Below are positions 3,293-25,533 of a DNA stretch of 64,000 nucleotides, piece after piece. The position numbers and the translations under genes are program-made. The first letter of the stretch is position 1; each line of letters starts with the position of its first letter. The notes beneath the pieces are model-generated. The model did no database searches. It was not told the DNA's origin and saw nothing but the letters and a program-made list of their open reading frames with translations. Source of the stretch: Clostridiaceae bacterium (GTDB taxonomy: Bacteria; Bacillota; Clostridia; DSM-8532); assembly GCA_012719545.1 (NCBI GenBank), contig JAAYAD010000034.1:1-64000 (forward strand), in the 5' to 3' direction.

Positions 3293-4246
3293 CTACATTT
3301 TTCGCAGATTGGACTTCTTTCTAAGCCTCATAATAACAACCGCAGATGCCGAAATGTATATTACTCCTGCAAGTGCATATGGAGTAAGCAAAATATACGC
3401 CAGAAATACCAGTGGCAGAAGCAAAATGCCCACAATAAGCTTAATAAGTGGTTTATCGGCTATAAATTCTGCTATGGGCGGGGATATCCTGTAATAGAAA
3501 TTAACAAATGCAGTTCCGGGCTTGTTTGTTAAAAGGAACTTATCTCTGAACTGCCTTAAAATTCTTACAGGCTCACCATCATAAGAGCCAAATGATGCAG
3601 TAGCAATAAAGCATGACCCCGTCCTTAACTCTATACTGCTTAAATCAGACGTATTGTTTAAAAATTTTATCACATTTCCCGAATTTTTGGTACCGCTCTG
3701 TATTTCTCCTTGTATCCTGTTTACTCCTGCCGAACGAAGCATGTTGGCAAAGTTTATTGTAGAATTTATTGAAAACTTGCTGTCACCGTCATTTCCAATT
3801 ATGGAAACAAGATATGTCAAGGCCTTCTTGGGAACATCTGGATTTTGGGTATCTATTTTAAACTCCAGCTTTACTGGAACCTCTGTAAGCAATTGAGCAT
3901 TTCTTTCATAGCTGTTTCGGTAATATACCTCATTATCCTCGGTCTGGAAGATATAAAAATACTCGTCCCTTGTATCAAACACGGTGTCTTTGTCATATTC
4001 CCCGCTGTTATTGTATATTAAGAGCTCGTAGGAAGTTTTAAGATTGGTGTCCAGCCAATCCACCAGCCTTTGGGCTTCTTTCTGGGCAATCCAAAGTTCT
4101 TCGCCTTTGTTGAACATCTTATTTGCAATATCAAAAGTCATATAGCTTAAGGCAAGGAGAATAAGAAGGATTGTAAGCGCTACTATCAGTTCTATGACTG
4201 TAAGCCCACTTTCATTGCCGTGGGAAATTTTAATCCTCATTCTCAC
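3293..4246 (-). CDS. Minor pilin-like protein with C-terminal CFIATA box and membrane tail
   Basis: The 317-residue protein starts like a prepilin: Gly14 followed by LTVIE, with Glu at +5 and a hydrophobic helix to about residue 36. A middle region (40-205) has the spacing of PilW/PilJ-type minor pilins. From Cys212 it carries CFIATASFGS, then a conserved-looking block (LRQFRD, FVNFYYRISPP) and a second hydrophobic segment at about 270-307 ending in basic residues. The CFIATA box is a recurrent C-terminal domain in unrelated bacterial surface proteins; its function is not established to my knowledge. The start is GTG, 8 bases after GGAGG, immediately after the stop of the preceding gene, so the two are probably translationally coupled. 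A pilin with two membrane anchors is odd, because pilins must leave the membrane to assemble. Confidence 0.75.
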   Translation of the reverse strand: MRMRIKISHGNESGLTVIELIVALTILLILLALSYMTFDIANKMFNKGEELWIAQKEAQRLVDWLDTNLKTSYELLIYNNSGEYDKDTVFDTRDEYFYIFQTEDNEVYYRNSYERNAQLLTEVPVKLEFKIDTQNPDVPKKALTYLVSIIGNDGDSKFSINSTINFANMLRSAGVNRIQGEIQSGTKNSGNVIKFLNNTSDLSSIELRTGSCFIATASFGSYDGEPVRILRQFRDKFLLTNKPGTAFVNFYYRISPPIAEFIADKPLIKLIVGILLLPLVFLAYILLTPYALAGVIYISASAVVIMRLRKKSNLRKM

Positions 4247-4248
4247 AG

Positions 4249-5997
4249 CTAATTCCTCCCTGCTACGGTAACAAAGGGCTGGCTGGGACTTCCACCGCTA
4301 TACTGAGCCGAAGTCCAGGATATGCCATCGGTGGAGGCATAAATTATTCCCTTTCCATCCTTCTGTCCAACTGCATAGAATCTGTCGTTTATGTATTCAA
4401 CATCGTTAAAGGATGCACCGGAGGCTATGTTATATGAATTCCAGGTTATTGTTCCCGATGAATTCAATATGCCCGTAAGGATCTTACCGGAATCGCCTAC
4501 GGCAACAAACCTGTCTCCTCCAAATGAAATAGAAGTAATTTTACCCGGTCCTCCGCTTCCAATGTTTTCTTGAGTCCAACTGGTATTTCCTTTGACAATC
4601 TGCCTTGATGAATATATTTTCCCGTTCGCAGTACCAAGAAGGAAAACGGGTACTTCTTCTTCTCCGTTATATGTTGCTCCATACTCTATTGAAGTGGCAG
4701 CTGGCAGTTTAACACTTGAAGGAATGGCATCGTACCATCTTCCATTATCTACTGAAGGTGTTCTGGCTATTACAACGGCATTATTGTCCTCATCGCTTCC
4801 TACAGCAATGGAGTAAGAAGTACCATTGCTTTGGACAGTAATAATGTCATCCACAGACTTAACCTGGCTTGAATGGGTCAGGTTGGGAAATTTTGATGAC
4901 AGATTTGAGCCGCTTGCATTGTAGTCGGTTGCAAATCCGTGCATTTTATCATCTGTCCAATATATTAACACTTTTGTCTGATACATAAAACGTCCGCCAA
5001 TAATGGGTATGCCATTGTAGTTTATACCAACGGACTGTATGTCTGGGGTCTTGTTCCTCTCTCCCAACACTATGATATCATTGTTAAGAATACTTCCGTT
5101 TCCGGTAATGTCCCCGGTGGTCCAGGAATTTCCTCCTGAAAGAGTCCTGTATACGCCGCCGTTTCCAACAGCTAAATATCTTGACGTTGCCCCATCCCAT
5201 ATAATTTCATTAATACTGTTGGCAATTTTGCCCGATGATTTGTAAAACAGCGGCTGCATGGAGCCTGATGAGCCGTCAATTCCTTTTGAGGAATAGTATT
5301 CACCATTGGAAGCGGCAACAATGATATTGGGCGGCTCCACATACAATTTGGCAGTATAGGAATCATTATTGCCAAGCTTTACAGTATAGGGCTGAAGGGA
5401 AGCCGTAACCGATGGTGAAGTACTGCTTAGGGTCATGGCCATTGTCATGTTGTCAATAAAGCTGAAAGATACTGTATTAACCTGATTATTATTTTTATCA
5501 TACAGCTTGAATCTTCCGGCATCTTCAGGGGCAAATGCCAGAAATTCAGAATATATGTAAATAACCTTTCCCAGAAGGTTGTCATCCTCGCTTACTGAAT
5601 TGGGAACCAGCCGTATTCTGGCCTTATTATCTCCTGCCGCAATTGCGGTATAGACGGTGGCAAGCTCAAAACCGGATAATGTGCCCGTATCGCTTACAAA
5701 AGCTCCTGTTACAGGTATAGGGCCTGTTTTAGGTAGTACTTCTCCTGAAGAGGTTGTTGCTTCTTTAAAAACAGTATTGATGGTTACCGAAGGAAGTCCT
5801 GAATTGGTGTTTCTTTCAGACAGCTTTTTCTCCATTTGGGATTTGCTTTCATAAAGTTCCTTCTGCCCCTTACCGCTTTCATAAATCTGCCTTAGGCTGA
5901 AAGCCATCAATGGGGTAAAAGCAAACACAACCATCAATATAATGGTAAGAGCAACCAATATTTCAACCAGTGTAAATCCTTTTTTGCTTTTGAACAT
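4249..5997 (-). CDS. Large minor pilin fused to a beta-propeller-like domain
   Basis: The 582-residue protein opens with a short leader ending in KKG, cleavage before FTLVE and a pilin helix (residues 8-32). Residues 40-240 look like an adhesin or linker region. From about 255 to the end there are repeated blade-like units of the form 'xxYLAVGNGGVYRT', 'DRFVAVGDSGKI' and 'DRFYAVGQKDGKG', each with a GxxW or ISWT turn, as in BNR or Ycf48-like propellers. I infer a pilin carrying a propeller at the pilus tip, analogous in layout to the propeller of PilY1 but fused to the pilin itself. ATG 5997 is preferred: AGGAG lies 5 bases upstream, and the in-frame ATG at 6018 overlaps the preceding gene without its own site. 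Binding partner unknown. Confidence 0.8.
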   Translation of the reverse strand: MFKSKKGFTLVEILVALTIILMVVFAFTPLMAFSLRQIYESGKGQKELYESKSQMEKKLSERNTNSGLPSVTINTVFKEATTSSGEVLPKTGPIPVTGAFVSDTGTLSGFELATVYTAIAAGDNKARIRLVPNSVSEDDNLLGKVIYIYSEFLAFAPEDAGRFKLYDKNNNQVNTVSFSFIDNMTMAMTLSSTSPSVTASLQPYTVKLGNNDSYTAKLYVEPPNIIVAASNGEYYSSKGIDGSSGSMQPLFYKSSGKIANSINEIIWDGATSRYLAVGNGGVYRTLSGGNSWTTGDITGNGSILNNDIIVLGERNKTPDIQSVGINYNGIPIIGGRFMYQTKVLIYWTDDKMHGFATDYNASGSNLSSKFPNLTHSSQVKSVDDIITVQSNGTSYSIAVGSDEDNNAVVIARTPSVDNGRWYDAIPSSVKLPAATSIEYGATYNGEEEVPVFLLGTANGKIYSSRQIVKGNTSWTQENIGSGGPGKITSISFGGDRFVAVGDSGKILTGILNSSGTITWNSYNIASGASFNDVEYINDRFYAVGQKDGKGIIYASTDGISWTSAQYSGGSPSQPFVTVAGRN

Positions 5998-6008
5998 TTT
6001 ATCTCCTT

Positions 6009-7226
6009 TTACTCCCATATTACTGTTCCCTCTTCATCCCTGGGAGGCGGAATCAAATCTTCCGGCTTATCCTTTGGATTTTTCTCCGGATCAATTTTTC
6101 TCATGTAACTTATGTCGTATTTTGGACCGTTTGACGGATAAATTGCAGACAGTATATTGGCAATAAAACTTCCTGTTCCGTTATTGTCAATATAATACTT
6201 TACAAGGTCAAGGCCGCCGCTTCCTCTGAAATAATATACATCGCCTTTTGAAAAAAGCTTGGTGCGCGTACTTCCGAAAGGCCTTCCTATGGTTATGTAA
6301 ACATCTCCGCCAAAGTACACCTTGCCGCACTTATAGGATTCTGCTGTAACCGGATCATCATACTCATAATCCTCCAATACCGACAAGACAAGAGTGCCTA
6401 TGCCTGCGTTAAATATGCCATAGTATGCATAGAGTTCCACATCCCCGTTGAGAACTATGTCGCCGCCGCTTAATACAAGCACATTCTTGCTGTGGGTTCC
6501 TTTTCTAAGGGAAATTGGCATGTCAAAATAAAGGCCTTTTCCTGCATAGGCAATTTTCTGGTTGGCATTTAGTGAGAATGTCACATTACTTCCGCCGTTA
6601 GGCTGGGGAAAGCTTATATTCCCTGGGAAAACATGACCTTTTATAGTGGTGGATGATACTCCCCACCATAAACTGCTGTGAACAACCTTTGAGTCGATTG
6701 CAATCATACCATTTTCCGAAGGTGTGCCCGAAGCATTGTACCATCCCTGGTCATATGCATTTAAAGACATTACGGTATAGGCTCTTGCCTTTGCAGTAGC
6801 TTTTCCTACCACTGCAGTGGATTCAAAATATACTACTTTCGCGGTTTTACCCGCAATATTCTTTTCAACATTTGGAGTAACTTTGACGGTATAATAGCCA
6901 ACGCTGTTGTTTGGAGCTTTTTCTCCTTCGGAAGGTGTGTAAAAAGTTCCGTCTTTAAGCATGTAAACCGGCATGGTTTCCCTTTCACTTGCAGTATCGT
7001 CTGTTACAGCCTGCCATGCCTTTATTGTTACCTCAACGCCGGTGCGCGCCAGATACTGGGCCTTTTTAAGATCTTTATTGAACAAATATTGCAAAAAGTC
7101 GTTGGATGAATAGAAATACAGAGCGGCAGACAAGATTGCCACAACAAACATAATCAGTATTGCCAGCCCCATGGCAAGGCCCCTCTGACTCTTGAGTTTA
7201 TCCAACCACTTAAATTTCCTTATCAT
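6009..7226 (-). CDS. PilX-like pilus assembly protein
   Basis: The protein of about 405 residues has a basic N-terminus, the sequence SQRG followed by LAMGLAILIMFVVAIL, and a single membrane helix with SNDFLQY after it. This matches the N-terminal domain of PilX/GspK-type minor pilins, which lack the Glu at +5 found in the other pilins here. The large C-terminal part contains beta-rich segments such as GDIVLNGDVELYAYYG and KVYFGGDVYITIG, resembling polymer-forming or right-handed helix repeats, but I do not recognise a catalytic motif. It lies between pilB and the propeller pilin with almost no spacing. The start may be ATG 7226 or the TTG two codons earlier. Likely role: priming or tip complex of the pilus, by family analogy. 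Confidence 0.75.
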   Translation of the reverse strand: MIRKFKWLDKLKSQRGLAMGLAILIMFVVAILSAALYFYSSNDFLQYLFNKDLKKAQYLARTGVEVTIKAWQAVTDDTASERETMPVYMLKDGTFYTPSEGEKAPNNSVGYYTVKVTPNVEKNIAGKTAKVVYFESTAVVGKATAKARAYTVMSLNAYDQGWYNASGTPSENGMIAIDSKVVHSSLWWGVSSTTIKGHVFPGNISFPQPNGGSNVTFSLNANQKIAYAGKGLYFDMPISLRKGTHSKNVLVLSGGDIVLNGDVELYAYYGIFNAGIGTLVLSVLEDYEYDDPVTAESYKCGKVYFGGDVYITIGRPFGSTRTKLFSKGDVYYFRGSGGLDLVKYYIDNNGTGSFIANILSAIYPSNGPKYDISYMRKIDPEKNPKDKPEDLIPPPRDEEGTVIWE

Positions 7227-7235
7227 TTTCAACGT

Positions 7236-8942
7236 TTATATAACCACCCTTAGCAATTCTTCTATGGAGGTTATTCCTTTTTTAACCTTCATAAGTCCAT
7301 CGTTTCTTAACGTAATCATACCTTCTTTAATTGCAAGATCCCTTATTTCATTTGTGGAGGCTTTGTTTAAAATAAGCTTCTGCATTTTTTCTGTCACTCT
7401 TAAAAACTCATAGAGACCTGTTCTTCCCTTATAACCGGTATTATTGCAGGAAAGACAACCAACAGGCTTATATATAGTAATTTTTTCTTCATGGGGCTCA
7501 AGAGGAAAATCAGGAATACTCCTTAAAATCTCCTCACGACTGTATTCATGGGGTTTCTTGCAGGAAGGACAAAGCACACGCACAAGACGCTGTGCTATAA
7601 CCCCTACCAGGCTCGAAGCAGTAAGGAATGGTTCTATTCCCATATCTTCAAGTCTTGTAACTGCTCCGGGAGCATCGTTTGTATGTAAGGTAGATAATAC
7701 AAGATGCCCTGTCAGCGCAGCTTCCACAGCTATCTGAGCCGTTTCCCGGTCACGGATTTCTCCAACCATTATAATGTCGGGATCACTTCTTAAAATTGAC
7801 CTTAATCCCGAAGCAAAGGTCATTCCTGCCTTAACGTTCATTTGTACCTGGTTAAGGCCAGCCATTTTTCTTTCAATCGGGTCCTCAAGAGTGATAATAT
7901 TCTTGTCAGGGGTATTAATCTTTGCAAGAGTAGCATATAGTGTGGTACTCTTACCGCTTCCTGTAGGCCCCGTTATCAGGATAAAACCGTATGGAAGCTT
8001 GAAAACCTCATTATAGCGCTTAAGTTGTGTTTCAGGAAAGCCCAGACTTTCAAGGGAAAGAATTTCACTGCTCCTGTCAAGAAGCCTTAATGATATTTTT
8101 TCACCATATGCAGAAGGCAGCGTAGCCACACGTATATCTATGGTTCGGTCTTCGTAGCGCAACGACACACGGCCATCCTGAGGAATTCTTCTCTCCGCTA
8201 TATCCATGCCAGCCATAACCTTAATTCTTGAAGAAATAAGCGGATGAAGCTTACGTGGCTGCTGCATGATTTCATGGAGAACACCGTCTATTCTTAACCT
8301 TACCTTTATTGATTTTTCCTGAGGATCAATATGAACGTCACTGGCGCCAGCCCTTATGGCATGGTTAATTATCTGGTTCACCAACTGCACTGCAGGCTTT
8401 TCATTTATCTCATTGTTGTCAACTACATCAAGCTCATCCTCGTTCTCTTCGTCTTCCGTTCTTTCCTCAACATTCTTGTTTATATTACAGAACTGCTCAA
8501 TTAAGGCAGAAAGCTCGTTGTCGGGCAAAACAACAGGCTCAATTTCATATCCCGTCAATATATGAAGATCATCAATGGCAATAATGTCGTTGGGATTCTG
8601 CATTGCCACCTGAAGCCTTCCATTATTCATACCGGTGGGAATAACCCTGTATTTCAAGGCTATTTCAGGCGTGATAAGATTGGCAGTATCCATATCAATG
8701 CCGCTTTTGTTTACGGATAAAAACTTTGATCCTGTTTTTCTTGCCATTGCCTTTGCAATATGCTCCTCAGTGCAATAGCCAAGATCTATAAGGACCTGCC
8801 CTAAAAGCATTTTCTTACCCATATTCTTCTTTTTGGCCTGAATTTCGAGGGCGTGCATTATCTGCTGTTCATTTACAACACCCATTTTAATAAGCTCTTC
8901 GCCTAAAAAGCCAGCATTTAGAACTGCTCCCACTTTATCCAT
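7236..8942 (-). CDS. pilB: Type IV pilus extension ATPase PilB
   Basis: Cytoplasmic hexameric ATPase that powers pilus extension. The N-terminal 70 residues contain two repeats of the form LGEELIKMGVVNEQQ and LGQVLIDLGYCTEEH, as in GspE/MshE N-domains that bind cyclic di-GMP. An acidic linker (160-180) follows. The ATPase core has Walker A GPTGSGKST (325-333), Asp boxes, Walker B DPDIIMVGE and a His box. A four-cysteine zinc site (Cys458, 461, 496, 499) is typical of PilB/GspE and absent from PilT. Full length at 568 residues. The ATG at 8942 has no spaced ribosome-binding site; GTG 8933, with AAGG 8 bases upstream, is an equally good start. Confidence 0.96.
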   Translation of the reverse strand: MDKVGAVLNAGFLGEELIKMGVVNEQQIMHALEIQAKKKNMGKKMLLGQVLIDLGYCTEEHIAKAMARKTGSKFLSVNKSGIDMDTANLITPEIALKYRVIPTGMNNGRLQVAMQNPNDIIAIDDLHILTGYEIEPVVLPDNELSALIEQFCNINKNVEERTEDEENEDELDVVDNNEINEKPAVQLVNQIINHAIRAGASDVHIDPQEKSIKVRLRIDGVLHEIMQQPRKLHPLISSRIKVMAGMDIAERRIPQDGRVSLRYEDRTIDIRVATLPSAYGEKISLRLLDRSSEILSLESLGFPETQLKRYNEVFKLPYGFILITGPTGSGKSTTLYATLAKINTPDKNIITLEDPIERKMAGLNQVQMNVKAGMTFASGLRSILRSDPDIIMVGEIRDRETAQIAVEAALTGHLVLSTLHTNDAPGAVTRLEDMGIEPFLTASSLVGVIAQRLVRVLCPSCKKPHEYSREEILRSIPDFPLEPHEEKITIYKPVGCLSCNNTGYKGRTGLYEFLRVTEKMQKLILNKASTNEIRDLAIKEGMITLRNDGLMKVKKGITSIEELLRVVI

Positions 8943-8983: not shown

Positions 8984-9514
8984 CTATCTGTGATATGCGC
9001 TTGCTGTTATATCTGCCTGTATAGTGCCGTTCTGACCATCAAGCTTTGCTATTTTTATCTTATCTACTCTGATTAGCCTTTCTCCGCCTGATATATCAGC
9101 CAAAAGCTCAACAATGGAAGAAAACTTCCCTGATACAATCATGTAAAAAGGCATCTCAACCATATCGTTATGATTAATTCTCTCATCAAACTTTATGGTT
9201 TTGAATTCAGCATCGTGCTTTAATGACATATTGCGCATCTGCACCATTAACTGATATTCATTGGGATTGTCAGGAAGCTTGTCCTTTAAAACAGAAACAA
9301 TATTCTCAAGTTTGCTTCTGTCCTTTTCAAGGCTCATCATCTCCATAAGCTTTTGCTCATTTTGCTCCAGGGCGAACCTTTCCTTCTCAAGATTTGTGGT
9401 TGTATTCCTGAATTCAGCAATTTTAAGAGCGCTTAAGAGAATAAGAAATGCCGATAACACTATGGATGCAGCCATCAAAACATGATATGTGGAAATCTTG
9501 TTTCTGTTATTCAC
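8984..9514 (-). CDS. pilO: Type IV pilus inner-membrane protein PilO
   Basis: The 176-residue protein has one N-terminal membrane helix (about residues 10-32), a coiled-coil segment rich in Glu/Lys (35-80), and a small ferredoxin-like C-terminal domain. Together these are the PilO layout. PilO pairs with PilN to form the alignment complex linking the motor to the pilus. I place the start at GTG 9514: GAGGAGG lies 8 bases upstream and the gene then overlaps the pilN stop by 8 bases. The longer open frame reaching 9604 would add 30 residues entirely inside pilN. The assignment rests on architecture and position after pilM-pilN more than on sequence identity. Confidence 0.88.
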   Translation of the reverse strand: MNNRNKISTYHVLMAASIVLSAFLILLSALKIAEFRNTTTNLEKERFALEQNEQKLMEMMSLEKDRSKLENIVSVLKDKLPDNPNEYQLMVQMRNMSLKHDAEFKTIKFDERINHNDMVEMPFYMIVSGKFSSIVELLADISGGERLIRVDKIKIAKLDGQNGTIQADITASAYHR

Positions 9515-10082
9515 TGGCTGCCACCTCCTCAAATACGAACCCCTCTCCGGGAAGCAGGGCAAAGCTAATTTCAAACTCAACCCGGCCCTGGGTTTCCTGG
9601 GCATAGTTGCACATAACTTCTCCGGTTTTGTTCAGTTCTTCAAGAGCTTTTATCCAGTCAGTCACTCCCTGATGGTTCAATGAAACTCCTTGTACAATGC
9701 AATTGCCCTTTCCGTCGCTATAGCTAAGTTGTATACTTGTAAGCCCAATATTTTCGGGCACTGTATTGCTAATTTCTGCTAACAAGCTATCCCATTCAGG
9801 ATTTTTGCCATAGGCTTTTGATGCCATATCAGAAAGGCTTTTTGCCTCATTCTTTAATGCTATAAGTTCGCCGATTCCGGAAATCCTGTTTTCAACAATC
9901 CGATTCGTATTCCTTATACTGTCAAGCTCACGCCCTTTGGCAGCCATAGCAAGGGTAAGCCCAAGATATAGAGCAAAAAGCCCCAGCATAACTATAATAG
10001 ATATCATTAATCCCTTGTCCTTTTTCTTTGATGCCTGGTGAAGCATCCTGTATTCACTGGGCAAGAGGCTTATATTATACAT
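9507..10082 (-). CDS. pilN: Type IV pilus assembly protein PilN
   Basis: The 191-residue protein begins with MYNISLLPSEY, the short cytoplasmic PilN segment that docks into the groove of PilM. A membrane helix (25-48), a coiled coil and a ferredoxin-like fold follow. GGAGG sits 7 bases upstream and overlaps the end of pilM, so coupling is likely. PilM-PilN-PilO order is the conserved one for the alignment complex. Confidence 0.92.
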   Translation of the reverse strand: MYNISLLPSEYRMLHQASKKKDKGLMISIIVMLGLFALYLGLTLAMAAKGRELDSIRNTNRIVENRISGIGELIALKNEAKSLSDMASKAYGKNPEWDSLLAEISNTVPENIGLTSIQLSYSDGKGNCIVQGVSLNHQGVTDWIKALEELNKTGEVMCNYAQETQGRVEFEISFALLPGEGFVFEEVAASE

Positions 10083-10084
10083 CC

Positions 10085-11050
10085 TTAATCCTCCAATCCT
10101 CTCAAAGCCAGGCTTATGGCCGCAACATAACCAAATAAATTGAAAGCCTTGCCCTTTCCCTTAGAAATGCTTTCTTCAAGCTTTTTATATGGTTCAAGCA
10201 CCTCAAAGGAAAGGCCTGTGGCTAAAGAAAGTTTTTCAGCCACCGCATTTTGGTATGTACTTGTTCCAAGTATGCAGAATCTTGCAACATCCTGATAGGT
10301 CTGGGACCTGAAGTAATTTACCGAGGTCCTTACCTCTCCTAAAAGGATGTCAGAAATAGCATCCAGTGTATCCTCTGCATCTTCAAAGTCGGGTTGATTC
10401 AGCAGGGTATTCGAAAAACTCACTGTACGGGCTATTGCCAGAAATCCATTATTGAAAATCATAATATTGCCAATGTCATTATTAAATGTTATAAGGGCAA
10501 AGTTGCCATCATTGCTCTCTAACAGAGCTGCACGCCCCAGAGCCAGCATGGTGGAGTCAATTTCCGTAATAGTCAGATTTGACTTGCTTACAGCTTCTAT
10601 GAAATCATTGAGCATCTTTTTTCTTGCACCCACCAGCAGGACATTCAAACCTGCGCCTGAATCATTTCCTTCCTCTCCCAGAACAACATAATCCAGCTGC
10701 AGTTCTTCCAATGGAATTGGAATATAGTCCTGAGCCTGGAAACGGATCATATTCCTGATTTTATCCTGAGGTACCTTGGGAAAAGTTGCAAAGCGCACTA
10801 TTACATCCTGATTGTTTACACCTATGACAACCTCGCGTGCTTTAAACCCGTTTTGCTCTATAAGTTTCTGCAAATACACATTAAACTTGTCTATATCCAG
10901 AATGCGCCCATCCCTTACTATGCCTTCTGGAATGGATATACTTCCTAAGGCTGCTATAACCGGCTTTTTGCGGGTTCCTTTCAGTTCAACAGCCCTTATT
11001 TCTTTTGAATCGGCTTCAAGGCCTATAACACTGTTATTGTAAAATCTCAT
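10085..11050 (-). CDS. pilM: Type IV pilus actin-like protein PilM
   Basis: Cytoplasmic actin/FtsA-fold ATP-binding protein that recruits PilN and forms a ring under the membrane. The 321-residue sequence starts with SVIGLEADSKEIRAVEL, an actin-like phosphate-1 motif. It contains the PilM-typical stretch VIVRFATFPKVPQDK and the segment IPIPLEELQLDY. It is slightly shorter than the usual 350 residues, mainly near the C-terminus. AGGGGA lies 7 bases before the ATG. It is separated from the upstream sigma factor gene by only 15 bases. Confidence 0.93.
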   Translation of the reverse strand: MRFYNNSVIGLEADSKEIRAVELKGTRKKPVIAALGSISIPEGIVRDGRILDIDKFNVYLQKLIEQNGFKAREVVIGVNNQDVIVRFATFPKVPQDKIRNMIRFQAQDYIPIPLEELQLDYVVLGEEGNDSGAGLNVLLVGARKKMLNDFIEAVSKSNLTITEIDSTMLALGRAALLESNDGNFALITFNNDIGNIMIFNNGFLAIARTVSFSNTLLNQPDFEDAEDTLDAISDILLGEVRTSVNYFRSQTYQDVARFCILGTSTYQNAVAEKLSLATGLSFEVLEPYKKLEESISKGKGKAFNLFGYVAAISLALRGLED

Positions 11051-11065
11051 ATGTATATCCCCTGT

Positions 11066-11761
11066 TTAATCGGTCAAATACTTTCTTAAATCCGTCAGAC
11101 TGCTTTTAAGAAGGCGCGATACCTTTCTCTGGTTTATATCAAGATAATCAGCAGTCTGCTGCTGGGTTTTGTTTTTATAAAACAAATAGAATATAACTGC
11201 CTGCTTAATCTCAGGAAGTTTTCTGACAGCATCAATAACCGCTATTCTGTCCTCAATTGGCAGCTTAAAGCTTTCATGATTTAGGCTTGTAACTTTATCA
11301 ATATCAAGCTGGTCTATGGATACAAGCCCCGTGCTGGTATCTTCAAGGTTATTCTCCATATCGCTGACGGCTGTGCAAGAAGAATTGATGGAATAACCTT
11401 CATTATTGAAATAAGAATCTTCAACTCGGCTCCGGCCTCTTTTTCCAAAGTCTTTACCTAAAGAAGGCCTGTAATATTTCATTTCTCTTCGCAGGTAATG
11501 CCTTATTTCGCCTGCGATGCAATAGGTTGCATATGTAGAGAACAACGCGTTAAAGCCTGGCTTATACCGCTTCAACGCCTTCATAACCCCCTCATATCCG
11601 GCCTGCATGGCATCACTTAAATGCAGTCCTTTTCCAAAGCTTATGGCAATGTGCCTGACAAGAGGAGCTGAAGCTTCCAGAAGTTTTGAAAGGTTGTCCC
11701 CTGTCGGGCTTTTCCTGTAACAATCATAAAGGCTGTTAATTTTATCGTTTATGAGCCCCAT
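11066..11761 (-). CDS. Sigma-70 family RNA polymerase sigma factor inside the pilus operon
   Basis: The 231-residue protein has sigma region 2 at about residues 28-105, including LVRHIA, the core-binding and -10 segments FSTYATYCIAGEIRHYLRRE, and a region 4 helix-turn-helix at the end (KTQQQTADYLDINQRKVSRLLKSS, split over about 200-225). Between them lies a Ser/Asn/Asp-rich linker (115-175) instead of a recognisable region 3. Region 2 is closest in feel to the SigB/SigF/SigG group. It starts 2 bases after the pilC stop with GGAGG 12 bases upstream, so it is co-transcribed with pilus genes. No anti-sigma factor gene is adjacent. A pilus-specific role is inference from position alone. Confidence 0.88.
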   Translation of the reverse strand: MGLINDKINSLYDCYRKSPTGDNLSKLLEASAPLVRHIAISFGKGLHLSDAMQAGYEGVMKALKRYKPGFNALFSTYATYCIAGEIRHYLRREMKYYRPSLGKDFGKRGRSRVEDSYFNNEGYSINSSCTAVSDMENNLEDTSTGLVSIDQLDIDKVTSLNHESFKLPIEDRIAVIDAVRKLPEIKQAVIFYLFYKNKTQQQTADYLDINQRKVSRLLKSSLTDLRKYLTD

Positions 11762-11762
11762 G

Positions 11763-12971
11763 CTAGAATCCCACCTCCGTTACCGCTGTAAAGATTGGCA
11801 GGTAAAGAGATATGAGCATACCGCCTATAAGAACGCCTATGAGAATAAGCGCAATGGGCTGGATGTGGGATTGCAATGTCTTTGTGCTTGTTTCCACTTC
11901 CTGCTCGTAGAATTCAGCTATTTTATCAAGGAGCACAGGTAACGTACCCGATTCTTCGCCCACGGCAATCATATGCGTTACAACCGGCGGGAAAATGCCG
12001 CTTTCCTCCAGCGTAGACGCAATGCTCTTTCCTTCCTCAATTTGTTTTGCCGCAAGTTTAACCGTATTTGCGATGATATCGCTTCCGGAGGTTGGTCCAG
12101 CGCTTTCAAGAGCCTGCACAACCGGGATTCCTCCCTCCAGAAGGGTGGCAAGTGTTCGTGAAAAGCGAGCAATAACAGACTTTAATATTAGGGGTCCGAA
12201 TATTGGAATTTTCAGCTTAAAATGTTCCCATAAATCATGACCTTTTTTGCTTTTTGCAAATGCCACTACGGCTGATGAAACAGCAACCATTGCCCCAAAC
12301 CATATATAATACCGGCTTCTTATTGATTCTGACAAGCCAAATACAAATCTTGTTATGGCCGGCGTGTGAGTTGTCTTAGGAATAAATCCTTCAAAAATTG
12401 GGACAAGGAAAATCAGCATTGCGAAAAATATAACAACGGCAAAAATGGCTATGGTTCTTGGATAGGAAATTGCCGACTTTACTTCTTCCTTAAGAATTTT
12501 TTCTTTCTGAAGCTGTTCTGAAAGCCTTATCAGGGATTTTTCCAGCATACCGCCTGTTTCGCCAGTACGAATCATTGATATGTAAAGATCTGAAAAAATA
12601 TTGGGATATGCGCCAAATGCCTCAGAAAGGTTCATTCCTCCTTCAACATCGCGAACAATGCCTTCAAGGGCATTTCTTAATGTTGGATTTTCAACCTGTC
12701 GGCTTAAAGTATATAAAGCCCTTGTTACAGGAATACCAGCTCCAAGCATGGATGAAAACTGACGGCTGAAAAGAGCAAGATCAGCCAAAGTCACCTTCTT
12801 GTCCATAGAAAGGAAGGAGCTTTTTCTCTTAGGTTTATTCTCGTTAAGGTCAATAACCGAAAGCCCCATACCGCGGAGCTTCTCCACAGCCTCATTTATG
12901 CTTTCGGCATTAATGACGCCCTTTACTATATCTCCCTGTTTGTTTAGGCATTCATATGTAAAAGTTATCAT
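11763..12971 (-). CDS. pilC: Type IV pilus platform protein PilC
   Basis: Polytopic inner-membrane platform of the GspF/PilC family. It is 402 residues long, with two repeated T2SSF domains (about 70-195 and 270-395). Each ends in hydrophobic helices and carries the family motif GIPVTRAL or GIPVVQAL, followed by a GETGGML or GEESGTLP segment. The N-terminal 60 residues hold the small beta domain FTYECLNKQGDIVKG. PilC couples the PilB and PilT motors to pilin insertion. Full length and intact. Confidence 0.96.
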   Translation of the reverse strand: MITFTYECLNKQGDIVKGVINAESINEAVEKLRGMGLSVIDLNENKPKRKSSFLSMDKKVTLADLALFSRQFSSMLGAGIPVTRALYTLSRQVENPTLRNALEGIVRDVEGGMNLSEAFGAYPNIFSDLYISMIRTGETGGMLEKSLIRLSEQLQKEKILKEEVKSAISYPRTIAIFAVVIFFAMLIFLVPIFEGFIPKTTHTPAITRFVFGLSESIRSRYYIWFGAMVAVSSAVVAFAKSKKGHDLWEHFKLKIPIFGPLILKSVIARFSRTLATLLEGGIPVVQALESAGPTSGSDIIANTVKLAAKQIEEGKSIASTLEESGIFPPVVTHMIAVGEESGTLPVLLDKIAEFYEQEVETSTKTLQSHIQPIALILIGVLIGGMLISLYLPIFTAVTEVGF

Positions 12972-14136: not shown

Positions 14137-15552
14137 TTATTCCTCAGAGCCGTTGTCCGACGATTCTTCTTCAAGGGGATTGTCAATAAACTTTATCATA
14201 TCCTTTACATACTGAATATTTTCCGGGGTGTCCTCAAGGTACAGAACATAATGGTACGAATTGTCCCTGGCAACATTGTCCGAAATGGTAAAATTCTCTG
14301 CTGGTATGCCAGTCAGGTTAACAATAAGCTTCATTCTTTCCTTAAGCCTGTAATAGCCTGACGACACATTGGAATAATCTACTGGTACTTTAATGGTATC
14401 AAGTATTACATCCATCTTCATAAGATGATTAAGCACATAAAGCTTGTAATCCGGAGGGCAAAAAATCAAAAGACTTTTTGAAAGGCTCGGATAATTTAAA
14501 GTATATGTTCTTATGCCTTCGATGCCAAGGTATTGAAGCCTTTTTTCTGCTTCTTTTGCCGAAATATTGTTAAGATAATATACAAAGAATAAATTGTCAT
14601 TGACATGTTCCTTAACGTCAAACTTGTTTATTATATGTTCGGCAAGCTCCACATTTCTTTCATCACCATTGAGCCAGATGGTCTTAAGCCTTCTGTTGAG
14701 AGTAATGATGTTTACGTCCAAATCAAGTTCTTCAAAGATATCCATGATTTCGTGGGACGTTAAGTATTCCATATTCTTCTGCTTTAATATAAAGCTGTTT
14801 TGCACATTTTTTGCGATATCAACTGTGTCCTTTACCTTTTTAATTTCCTCAAGGTCCTTATCTTTTCCGTAAAACCAGAGAGTCATAGGGTCAGACTCTA
14901 TAACTATTCCCTGAGGCAGCCCAATTTTGCCAAGTATAACATTGAGTTCATCAGCAGTAATATTACTCATTGCAACTGGCGACATCTTATAGCCAGCATC
15001 CTGATTTCCGGCATTCTCAGCCTTATCTAACATGGAAATAAGTTCTCTTATTTTCCCCAAATCTTTGGGAAGCCCCTGAATCCATATGGCTTTCTTGTTG
15101 CTATCAAGGATTATCTTTTTTACCTGTAAGGAAAGAGCATCAATCTGGGATGCCACAACTTCCGAATCAATATACTGAAGGTTGAATTTTGCCAGTGATG
15201 TTTCATTAAAGAAATCGCTGGTCAGCTTATCCCTGGTTCCAACAATTATGGTTTTTCCGTTTTGTATGTACTCCAGGCCAGCTACCTTTAAAAGATAATC
15301 AATGGCCTGGTCAAAGGTTGCATCTTCCACTCTGAAATCAACGTTTACAGGCTGACCTGTAAAAATTATGCTTTTATCTGCTGTATAAGCCAATGCCGAC
15401 AAAACATCCCTGATATCAGCACCAACAACATTTATTGTAATTTTATCGTCCTCGCTGCCTGATTTAATGGATGCATCTGCAAAACTCTGGAAAAAAAACG
15501 AAAATGCCAGTATAACAATCAAAAAGAGTAAATTTTTAATTTTGACAGACAT
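14137..15552 (-). CDS. Secretin N-domain protein without a secretin barrel (PilQ-like)
   Basis: The 471-residue protein has a signal peptide (about 1-27) and then ITINVVGADIRDVLSALA, the STN/N0 domain start of secretins (roughly 35-105). Several repeats of secretin N1-type folds follow, with units such as FNLQYIDSEVVASQID and VYYLNNISAKEAEKRL. The conserved C-terminal secretin barrel is absent; the chain ends in a domain with an acidic Ser/Glu tail. GGAGG lies 5 bases before the ATG. In diderm bacteria these N-domains sit in the periplasm and contact PilP. Here the protein follows a PilP-like gene, so the periplasmic part of the assembly seems kept without the outer-membrane pore. Extracytoplasmic location is predicted from the signal peptide. 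Confidence 0.8.
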   Translation of the reverse strand: MSVKIKNLLFLIVILAFSFFFQSFADASIKSGSEDDKITINVVGADIRDVLSALAYTADKSIIFTGQPVNVDFRVEDATFDQAIDYLLKVAGLEYIQNGKTIIVGTRDKLTSDFFNETSLAKFNLQYIDSEVVASQIDALSLQVKKIILDSNKKAIWIQGLPKDLGKIRELISMLDKAENAGNQDAGYKMSPVAMSNITADELNVILGKIGLPQGIVIESDPMTLWFYGKDKDLEEIKKVKDTVDIAKNVQNSFILKQKNMEYLTSHEIMDIFEELDLDVNIITLNRRLKTIWLNGDERNVELAEHIINKFDVKEHVNDNLFFVYYLNNISAKEAEKRLQYLGIEGIRTYTLNYPSLSKSLLIFCPPDYKLYVLNHLMKMDVILDTIKVPVDYSNVSSGYYRLKERMKLIVNLTGIPAENFTISDNVARDNSYHYVLYLEDTPENIQYVKDMIKFIDNPLEEESSDNGSEE

Positions 15553-15571
15553 ATTTTCCTCCTGCGCTATC

Positions 15572-16039
15572 TTATTTAGTGGACGATAAACTAAGTGTTA
15601 TGCTTTTCTCATTAGACTTAAGGGTAACAGAATCTTTCTCTATGCTGACAACTTTCCAGGATTTCTCTCCCACGATATCATCGATGCCTGCCACATATGA
15701 GCAGCCATCTGCAACTATTATGGCTACAGGCTTATTGTCTGAAAGCACAATTCCAGTAAGCTTCATGGGCTCACCAAAAGGATCCTTGCCAACATTTACA
15801 GCGCTTTCTGTCCTTTTAAACTGAGGCAGCACATCAACCTGCGGCTCCTTGGGAAGATTATCGCCGGTGTAAAAATCATCCGTTTTACCGGATGCGTCAA
15901 TGTTCTTATTTCCCTGTCCTGACAAAACAATAATAAGTACTACAAGAAGTACCACTAAAACAGGAAGAAGATAGACAAGCGACTTATTAACTTCAAAAAA
16001 CTTCTTTACGGCAGATTTCAAGCCCTCAATATATTTCAT
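15572..16039 (-). CDS. PilP/GspC-like membrane protein
   Basis: The 155-residue protein has one membrane helix near residues 20-42, a linker rich in Asp/Lys, and a C-terminal beta domain beginning at about GKDPFGEPMKLTGIV. The spacing DPF, LTGI, then paired strands ending VTLK and SITLSLS resembles the homology-region domain of PilP and GspC, which binds secretin N0. Its neighbour is a secretin N-domain protein, which supports this. I chose ATG 16039 with AAAGGA 7 bases upstream over the ATG at 16063. The call is from pattern and context; a profile search would be needed to make it firm. Confidence 0.65.
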   Translation of the reverse strand: MKYIEGLKSAVKKFFEVNKSLVYLLPVLVVLLVVLIIVLSGQGNKNIDASGKTDDFYTGDNLPKEPQVDVLPQFKRTESAVNVGKDPFGEPMKLTGIVLSDNKPVAIIVADGCSYVAGIDDIVGEKSWKVVSIEKDSVTLKSNEKSITLSLSSTK

Positions 16040-23604: not shown

Positions 23605-25533
23605 TCACATAGAATTTAGAATTTGTATGATGCTGTTTGCCAGAGACTCTGCGGCTTTTTGACGGAATGACTCAGTATTTAGCAGAGCAAGATCCTCTGA
23701 ATCGGACATACAAGCTATTTCTGCCAATACTGCAGGCATCTTGGTCTTCCTTACAACTACCAGATTTTCATTGCCTTTAAGTCCCAGATCACGGGTACCC
23801 AGATCTTTTACCAGGTTATCCTTTATTAACTGGGCATATGTTTTTCCATAGAAGCTGGTAGGATAGTACAGAGCCATTGTTCCTTTATATCCAGAAGGCA
23901 TAATATTATTGTGTATGCTTACAAAAAGCGCCGCATTTCTATCATTGGCAAATTGAGCTCTGCCGTCAAGAGAGACAAATACATCGGTTCTTCTTGTCAT
24001 TTCAACATTAACGCCCTTGGACTTTAATATGGCTTCGCATCTTAATGCAATGTCCAGGTTATAGAATTTTTCGTAATAGTTTCCTACTGTTCCTCCAGGA
24101 TCGCTTCCGCCATGCCCCGGGTCCAGAACAACAAGTTTCTTATTGTTGCTTCCTCCACCGCTTCCTGCACTGTCCAAAACTATCAGAAGCTCGTTTACAT
24201 TGCTTCCTTCTATAATCTTAAATTTATTGGCAGTGCTCGCCTTATTAATCATAAGATACGAATTGTACAGGGTAGAGTACGAAACTGCCGATTTTATATA
24301 GCTGTTATTAATAACAGTAGTTCCTGTTCCAAGGTTGACAATAGAAACAGGTATTACAAAGGTAACGGCTTCGTCATTAGTTTTATCATCAATTACTATA
24401 TCGCTTGAATACTGGCGGTACCTTGCAACTATATTGGGGCTTACAAGACGCAAAACCACTCCGTTTTCGCCATTCCCAACAACAAGATTGCTTATTCCGC
24501 CCGAAGGTGTTGGACTGGGAGAAGGCGTAGCAGTCGGACTTGCAGAAGGTGACGGTGTTGCAGAGGGTTTAGGCGTTGGAGTAGGAGTTGCTGACGGTGC
24601 TGTACCGCTGCCCTTCTTTATGGTTATTACCGAGTTTCCGCCTGACACGGCGTGGGTATATGTAATTGTATTTTTGTATGAAATCCTGATAATTGTACTG
24701 TTGGTCTTAGGGCTGTAATTTATAAGGATTCCGTTGATAATATCATTTCCAGAAAGGAAGCCATCAGTAAACCGGGTATCCTTTCCCGGGATAGTTATCT
24801 GGATAATCTTCTCTTTTTCACGCAGCTGCAGCCTGGGAACACTTTCGTTATCAGTCTGGGAAAGGGTTGTTCCCTGAAGATTAATTACACAGCTGTCACC
24901 TGACATGGACCATGACAGCGGGCCATTCTTTGTTATACTTCCGTTGCCCGTTGAAACCGGTGTGGTTGATGGAACTGGTGTGGTCGACGGACTAGGTGTG
25001 GTTGACGCTTTTGGTGTTGAACTGGGAGAAGGTGTCGGTGTATTAGAGGGCTTTGGGGTTGGAGTAGGAGTGCTGCTTGGTGCAGGTGTAGCTGAAGAAG
25101 CCCCCTTAATTGTCAGCACAAGGGATTTTCCGTCTTTAGCCGGCTCCAATGTATAATCAGGCTTTTTTGATATTTCAACCACAACATTGGTACGAGTTGG
25201 GTTACTCATGTTTGCAAGCCTGACCTGCCCTACCGAGCCTTTATTTACATCAAACTTAATGGTTTGAGGAACAGACTCATTGGCAATTTCGAAGCATAAA
25301 CGGTAATGGGTTATAGAACCTTCAGGAGCAATTATGTATTTATTCACAACCTGAGTGTTTGGGGTGAATATGGTGATTATTTCAGAGGTACCTTCCTGGG
25401 AATAAGCTACCTTTGATATGCTTCCTCCAATATTTAACTGAACATCATTTAATGCATTGGACGTAACAGGAATGCTCAGGATAAGGGAAAAAATAAGACA
25501 AAAAGCAATCCCCATGGACATGATTCTCTTCAT
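23605..25533 (-). CDS. N-acetylmuramoyl-L-alanine amidase with AMIN domains
   Basis: Secreted zinc amidase that cleaves the bond between muramic acid and the peptide stem of peptidoglycan. The 642-residue protein has a signal peptide (1-27) and three AMIN-like targeting domains (about 28-150, 205-312 and 345-460). Two Pro/Thr/Ser linkers of the TPTPTPKPS type (150-203 and 312-345) separate them. The C-terminal Amidase_3 domain (466-642) carries DPGHGG, the Glu in NYYEKFYN, SIHNN and the catalytic Glu in VLAEIACMSD. All zinc ligands are present. Three AMIN modules on one amidase is more than the usual one or two. Cell division or pilus passage roles are possible but not shown. Confidence 0.92.
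   Translation of the reverse strand: MKRIMSMGIAFCLIFSLILSIPVTSNALNDVQLNIGGSISKVAYSQEGTSEIITIFTPNTQVVNKYIIAPEGSITHYRLCFEIANESVPQTIKFDVNKGSVGQVRLANMSNPTRTNVVVEISKKPDYTLEPAKDGKSLVLTIKGASSATPAPSSTPTPTPKPSNTPTPSPSSTPKASTTPSPSTTPVPSTTPVSTGNGSITKNGPLSWSMSGDSCVINLQGTTLSQTDNESVPRLQLREKEKIIQITIPGKDTRFTDGFLSGNDIINGILINYSPKTNSTIIRISYKNTITYTHAVSGGNSVITIKKGSGTAPSATPTPTPKPSATPSPSASPTATPSPSPTPSGGISNLVVGNGENGVVLRLVSPNIVARYRQYSSDIVIDDKTNDEAVTFVIPVSIVNLGTGTTVINNSYIKSAVSYSTLYNSYLMINKASTANKFKIIEGSNVNELLIVLDSAGSGGGSNNKKLVVLDPGHGGSDPGGTVGNYYEKFYNLDIALRCEAILKSKGVNVEMTRRTDVFVSLDGRAQFANDRNAALFVSIHNNIMPSGYKGTMALYYPTSFYGKTYAQLIKDNLVKDLGTRDLGLKGNENLVVVRKTKMPAVLAEIACMSDSEDLALLNTESFRQKAAESLANSIIQILNSM

Follow-up and report, generated by a model that had tools for sequence, protein, structure and literature searches.

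A secretin that keeps its N-domains and lacks its outer-membrane barrel is encoded, together with a PilP-like partner, inside a type IVa pilus operon of a single-membrane clostridial bacterium, and the same two genes are found together in pil operons elsewhere in the Clostridia and in Desulfotomaculia. On balance, we think it probable that the N-domain protein forms a collar round the pilus that is anchored by the PilP-like protein and, in many species, tied to the wall, exit through the wall replacing exit through an outer membrane. Docking of the HR domain on N0, ring formation, wall binding and passage of the pilus are the steps that we infer. In any case, the protein is an example of a secretin persisting without its barrel.

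The pilus locus

The window is the whole stretch of DNA that was analyzed, i.e., positions 1 to 64,000 of contig JAAYAD010000034.1 (assembly GCA_012719545.1). The minus-strand order of the genes is pilD, pilP-like, the N-domain gene, pilT, pilC, a sigma-70 gene, pilM, pilN, pilO, pilB and prepilins (Table 1); one locus holds the type IVa pilus set of PilB, PilC, PilD, PilM, PilN, PilO and PilT plus prepilins. The original prediction placed the pair between pilD and pilT, where both genes indeed lie on the minus strand. It also put the start of the pilP-like gene at 16039, which looks right because AAAGGAC stands before this ATG. A ribosome-binding site, CAGGAGG, precedes the ATG of the N-domain gene at 15552.

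Table 1. Features of the pilus locus and domains of the N-domain protein (window positions)
Feature	Position	Strand	Basis or remark
pilD, prepilin peptidase	17121-16342	-	A24_N_bact 125 bits, Peptidase_A24 52.9 bits
PilP-like protein (single N-terminal membrane helix, HR domain)	15572-16039	-	ORF open from 16063
Barrel-less secretin N-domain protein, 471 aa, predicted secreted	14137-15552	-	Pfam and profile matches
Predicted signal peptide	15472-15552	-	Hydrophobic stretch 3-21 then A-D-A, read from sequence; cleavage likely after ADA, residue 27
N0 (STN) domain	15235-15441	-	AlphaFold model residues 37-105
Four N1/N3-like modules, D1-D4	14410-15198	-	Model residues 118-175, 188-243, 254-311, 321-380
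C-terminal domain D5, in the barrel's place	14182-14394	-	Model residues 386-456, pLDDT mostly >80
pilT, retraction ATPase	14110-13022	-	Conserved PilT-type sequence in translation; orthologue adjoins the pair in most loci
pilC, platform protein	11763-12971	-	Translation, synteny
pilM, pilN, pilO	8984-11050	-	PilM_2, PilN and PilO all above Pfam cut-offs
pilB, extension ATPase	7236-8942	-	Used in PilB tree

The N-domain protein

Both STN (29.3 bits, Pfam cut-off 28.4) and Secretin_N (55.7 bits, cut-off 28.2) pass their cut-offs in the N-domain protein, which agrees with the secreted STN/N0-N1 protein originally predicted, and the secretin barrel model PF00263 gives no match to it in the Pfam scan. 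Its top NCBIfam relatives are GspD, PilQ and HofQ, all far below threshold, as would be expected if the protein corresponds to a part of such a secretin. A profile built from 32 relatives matches PilQ N0 (4ar0, 3.9e-9) and the N1-N3 domains of GspD (5zdh, 1.5e-9); the GspD alignment stops before D5, about where we take the barrel domain of GspD to start.

Structure prediction had been suggested as a check, and the AlphaFold model, made with the relatives' alignment (mean pLDDT 83), consists of N0 and five small alpha/beta domains, with no barrel. Nearly all of its Foldseek matches under E 1e-3 are secretins or secretin N-domains. The pTM is low (0.55), and so the model does not give the spatial arrangement or stacking of the domains. 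By VIA-align, N0 resembles the N0 of PilQ (4ar0; Z 9.6, 2.8 A, 83 residues) and D4 resembles the N3 of GspD/XcpQ (Z 8.8-9.0, 1.8-1.9 A, 59-64 residues). D5 is conserved in most relatives; no fold relative of it stood out, VIA-align having barely been applied to this domain. The most conserved stretch is a DIRDV motif in N0, as expected if N0 is a docking site.

One reading of these modules is that they serve as a receptor in DNA uptake, to which PilQ and HofQ are tied; the KH-like modules would then bind the DNA that pilus retraction pulls in. HofQ is indeed among the weak NCBIfam matches and N1-type modules share the KH fold. However, every secretin N-domain has that fold too, and we consider this function improbable.

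The PilP-like protein

Taken as a single sequence, the PilP-like protein does not reach the Pfam cut-off for either PilP (15.8 vs. 25.6) or T2SSC (18 vs. 27). A profile of 27 orthologues matches Neisseria meningitidis PilP (2ivw, E=1.4e-5; 4av2_M, 1.9e-5) and GspC (2lnv, 8.1e-5), and the HR domain in the model of a fused orthologue superimposes on GspC 3oss_C with a TM-score (normalized to the target) of 0.84, at 1.5 A and 28% identity. The DPF motif and the HR core are conserved among the orthologues. Therefore, the protein has an HR domain, like PilP (PF04351) and GspC (PF11356), by both profile and fold, which backs the PilP-like assignment of the original prediction; of the profile searches proposed along with it, those for STN and Secretin_N pass their cut-offs, and the PilP domain is recovered with the orthologue profile. 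The domain assignments of the pair are right across many genomes and are not a chance result. Unlike the lipoprotein PilP, this protein has a transmembrane helix (residues 29-47, KD peak 3.47) and no lipobox cysteine at the end of that N-terminal helix, so that it is anchored like GspC.

Absence of a barrel and of Omp85

Neither PF00263 nor Omp85 (PF01103) has a match over its cut-off in this genome, which is 99.99% complete. The sole sub-threshold PF00263 match (G000:C38) is a sugar ABC permease and hence no barrel. An overlooked barrel encoded in frame had been named as the finding that would overturn the original prediction of a locus with no outer-membrane barrel; there is none in frame, only 26 nt separating the N-domain gene from pilT, and PF00263 is absent from the protein, its model and the genome alike. 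Judged by the two markers searched, Secretin and Omp85, the organism is a monoderm. The Peptococcaceae have likewise been described as monoderms without outer-membrane markers (Antunes 2016, PMC5007114).

Diderm lineages are known in the Firmicutes (PMC5007114), and a cryptic diderm might take its barrel from an unlinked, diverged protein. Against this, Secretin and Omp85 are missing over cut-off not only here, but also in 12 further genomes or records with the pair, and the control diderms were positive, which makes such an arrangement extremely improbable.

Distribution and synteny

The N-domain protein is present in 19 of the 391 sampled genomes of the window's class, where it is spread over five families, and in 30 of the 113 genomes from the class to which Sporotomaculum belongs. 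Named carriers are Thermoclostridium caenicola, Anaerobacterium chartisolvens, Pygmaiobacter massiliensis, Sporotomaculum syntrophicum and Desulfoscipio, and Gracilibacteraceae MAGs carry it as well. No match to a plasmid-borne relative was obtained. Synteny of the pilP-like, N-domain and pil genes extends over 20-odd loci, and the recurrence of the pair beside pil genes, including pilMNO, in other Clostridia is what the original prediction had proposed to look for. In most loci the pilP-like gene is immediately 5' of the N-domain gene and pilT or pilMNO is adjacent; three loci (L041, L045 and L047) have another arrangement or no BLAST-detectable PilP in that position. PilO is detectable in 13 of the 19 carriers vs. 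1.9 expected among the 391 genomes, a figure inflated by relatedness. In two genomes in which the gene appeared to be absent (G003, of the same genus, and G236), the contig is interrupted at the pil locus or within it, so that these two do not count as absences.

Two of the records display unusual patterns. P. massiliensis has a PilM-PilN fusion (L037, 14241-15773) in which PilM_2 is over its cut-off (43.5 bits) and PilN is below (17 bits). A MAG record titled Candidatus Sumerlaeota (L048) contains a whole clostridial-type pil operon with a LysM-N0 protein; it has no Omp85 match, and the PilB of this operon is its only PilB. Either the contig is mislabelled or mis-binned, or the operon was transferred.

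Fusions, LysM and the number of modules

The PilP-like and N-domain proteins are a single chain in three genomes (T. caenicola, L031; L029; L042), which sets the family apart from PilP and GspC. The order in the fused chain is helix, HR domain, N0 and modules, and the model of one fused protein has a confident HR domain ahead of N0. These fusions support the view that PilP and N0 work together.

In many relatives a LysM domain is located between the signal peptide and N0, and in each relative that was scanned for it (L032, L034, L036, L038, L048 and L078) it exceeds the Pfam cut-off. PilQ has peptidoglycan-binding AMIN domains ahead of N0, and so LysM, although a different domain, holds the equivalent place. 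A Pfam scan found no LysM in the window's own protein, which we count against the collar.

The number of N-type modules after N0 also varies: one (L078), two (Gracilibacteraceae), three (Desulfotomaculia, one of the three being inferred from a gap between matches), four (the window) and five (L035, L036), mostly followed by D5. The minimal form, L078, is LysM-N0-N1 only and is therefore too short to span the wall alone.

Selection and origin

The NG86 dN/dS ratios are 0.12-0.23 for pairs of N-domain genes with non-saturated dS (0.30-1.13) and 0.15 for one fused pair; a PilP-like pair gives 0.5, with few changes. The pilT genes of L039/L040 were left out because of a frame error. These ratios indicate purifying selection on the N-domain genes. 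The N-domain gene of one genome (L005/L022) is split by an in-frame TAA (L022, 9941-11368), with both halves conserved; this is an assembly error, a pseudogene or a case of read-through.

In a PilB tree of 46 rows, the pair-carrying operons form one clade (100/100) and the clostridial operons without the pair form a separate one (98/96). The PilB of L041 falls outside, probably because its gene is part of another operon, on the opposite strand. Two f50 genomes are inside the pair's clade, with the pair missing from what was readable, which suggests that they lost it. Both clades are weakly placed among diderm PilBs (56/89), and we therefore claim neither vertical inheritance nor transfer. In Imam 2011 (PMC3244431), the operons with PilQ in D. 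reducens, P. thermopropionicum and H. orenii were reported to group with Gram-negative operons.

The original prediction left a choice between a functional collar and a relic of a diderm ancestor. As a relic, the secretin and its linker would be remnants from such an ancestor, the barrel having disappeared along with the outer membrane, and would have little function now; an ancestral outer membrane has been proposed for the Firmicutes (PMC5007114), and the in-frame stop described above would fit. However, the low dN/dS ratios, the wide retention of the pair with its operon in kept synteny and the remodelling by LysM gain or PilP fusion disfavor a bare relic, which we regard as very improbable. 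Fusion, LysM gain and varying module number argue for a working part, and together with the selection and the single PilB clade they favor a working part of the wall, so that the collar is the half of that choice that we retain.

A proposed collar

We predict that the pair is the envelope module of a type IVa pilus fitted to a cell with one membrane. The PilP-like protein would sit with one helix in the membrane and its HR domain outside, where this domain would dock N0 of the N-domain protein, as in GspC-GspD and PilP-PilQ. The stacked N1/N3-like domains may then drive multimerization, forming a collar that surrounds the pilus as it grows and that the added LysM of many relatives would tie to peptidoglycan. 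No barrel for opening an outer membrane is left, the small D5 being in its place, and the collar would keep the passage through the wall aligned with PilM-N-O-C-B. Going further, we would tentatively suggest a distinct class of monoderm pilus portal, in which a barrel-less secretin forms a wall-anchored sleeve through the peptidoglycan and the variable number of stacked N-type rings sets its length, so that machinery for leaving through an outer membrane becomes machinery for leaving through the wall; this we hold to be less than an even prospect.

Chief among the alternatives is that the N-domain protein does not span the wall, but makes a short vestibule or gate on the outer side of the membrane, where it caps and steadies PilMNOP or controls retraction. 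The minimal LysM-N0-N1 form would suit this role, PilP stabilizes PilN-PilO in diderms (PMC6916266), and pilT is present in all pair-carrying operons where they are readable. However, in most carriers the protein still has three to five N-type modules plus D5, which is beyond the needs of PilP docking, and we find a vestibule possible but rather unlikely.

For the collar, the pair offers a candidate part whose partner is clear and which exists naturally in LysM (putative wall-binding) versions; among the named isolates, T. caenicola, A. chartisolvens and Sporotomaculum syntrophicum carry it.

Relation to known systems

Like PilQ (TIGR02515) and GspD (TIGR02517), the N-domain protein is secreted, has N0 followed by N1/N3-type domains and is encoded beside a PilP-like gene in a pil operon; unlike them, it has extra N-type modules and D5 and no C-terminal barrel. 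SpoIIIAG-type sporulation rings are another ring-building fold without an outer-membrane barrel in Firmicutes, and they differ in operon and function and in having no N0.

The original prediction that known Gram-positive pili typically lack PilP and PilQ agrees with reviews in which PilP and PilQ/secretin are absent from monoderms (PMC6916266, PMC6668835, PMC10191384), and needs one correction from Imam 2011 (PMC3244431), which lists PilQ homologues for Desulfotomaculum reducens and Pelotomaculum thermopropionicum, within their pil operons. Relatives of the N-domain protein were found here in Desulfotomaculia too, and those homologues and our protein are probably the same family. That paper is the precedent for PilQ homologues in pil operons of Gram-positives; as far as the excerpts consulted go, the missing barrel, the PilP-like partner, LysM, the fusions and the module variation are not reported there. 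The open-access literature yielded no account of a missing barrel, of LysM/PilP fusions or of a variable module number, nor anything on LysM with secretin, type IV pili and Clostridia or on SpoIIIAG with secretin.

Streptococcus sanguinis is also a monoderm with type IVa pili and PilM/N/O, and it makes pili without PilP or PilQ (PMC10191384). As these pili need neither protein and the two f50 genomes seem to be without the pair, the pair is not universally required. In S. sanguinis an enlarged PilO has been suggested to aid wall crossing (PMC6916266), whereas the PilO frames here are 176-220 aa. PilO frames of at least 250 aa occur in 10 of the 23 PilO-positive genomes without the pair vs. none of the 13 with it (Fisher p 0.006), a comparison made on related genomes and stop-to-stop frames with G003, G236 and G384 (an efflux-adaptor-like protein) excluded by hand. 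It is suggestive only of a large PilO standing in for the collar where the pair is missing.

Other genes of the locus

The sigma-70 family factor encoded between pilC and pilM within the pil operon (11066-11761, minus strand) has regions 2 and 4, and its nearest models are SigB/F/G, below their cut-offs. The gene is at the same operon place in seven other loci (L024, L025, L027 and L045-L048), and it is possibly a pilus-specific sigma factor.

Two prepilin-type proteins on the minus strand also have unusual features. The one at 3293-4246 ends in a CFI-box-CTERM domain (90.8 bits, cut-off 40), which is an unusual end for a pilin. The other, of 589 aa (4249-6018), has a prepilin N-terminus and repeats that look by eye like beta-propeller blades, and it may be a modular tip adhesin.

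Finally, the gene for an N-acetylmuramoyl-L-alanine amidase that matches AMIN weakly lies upstream of the pil operon (23605-25533, minus strand) and stays nearby in many relatives; the enzyme is a possible wall hydrolase for pilus exit.
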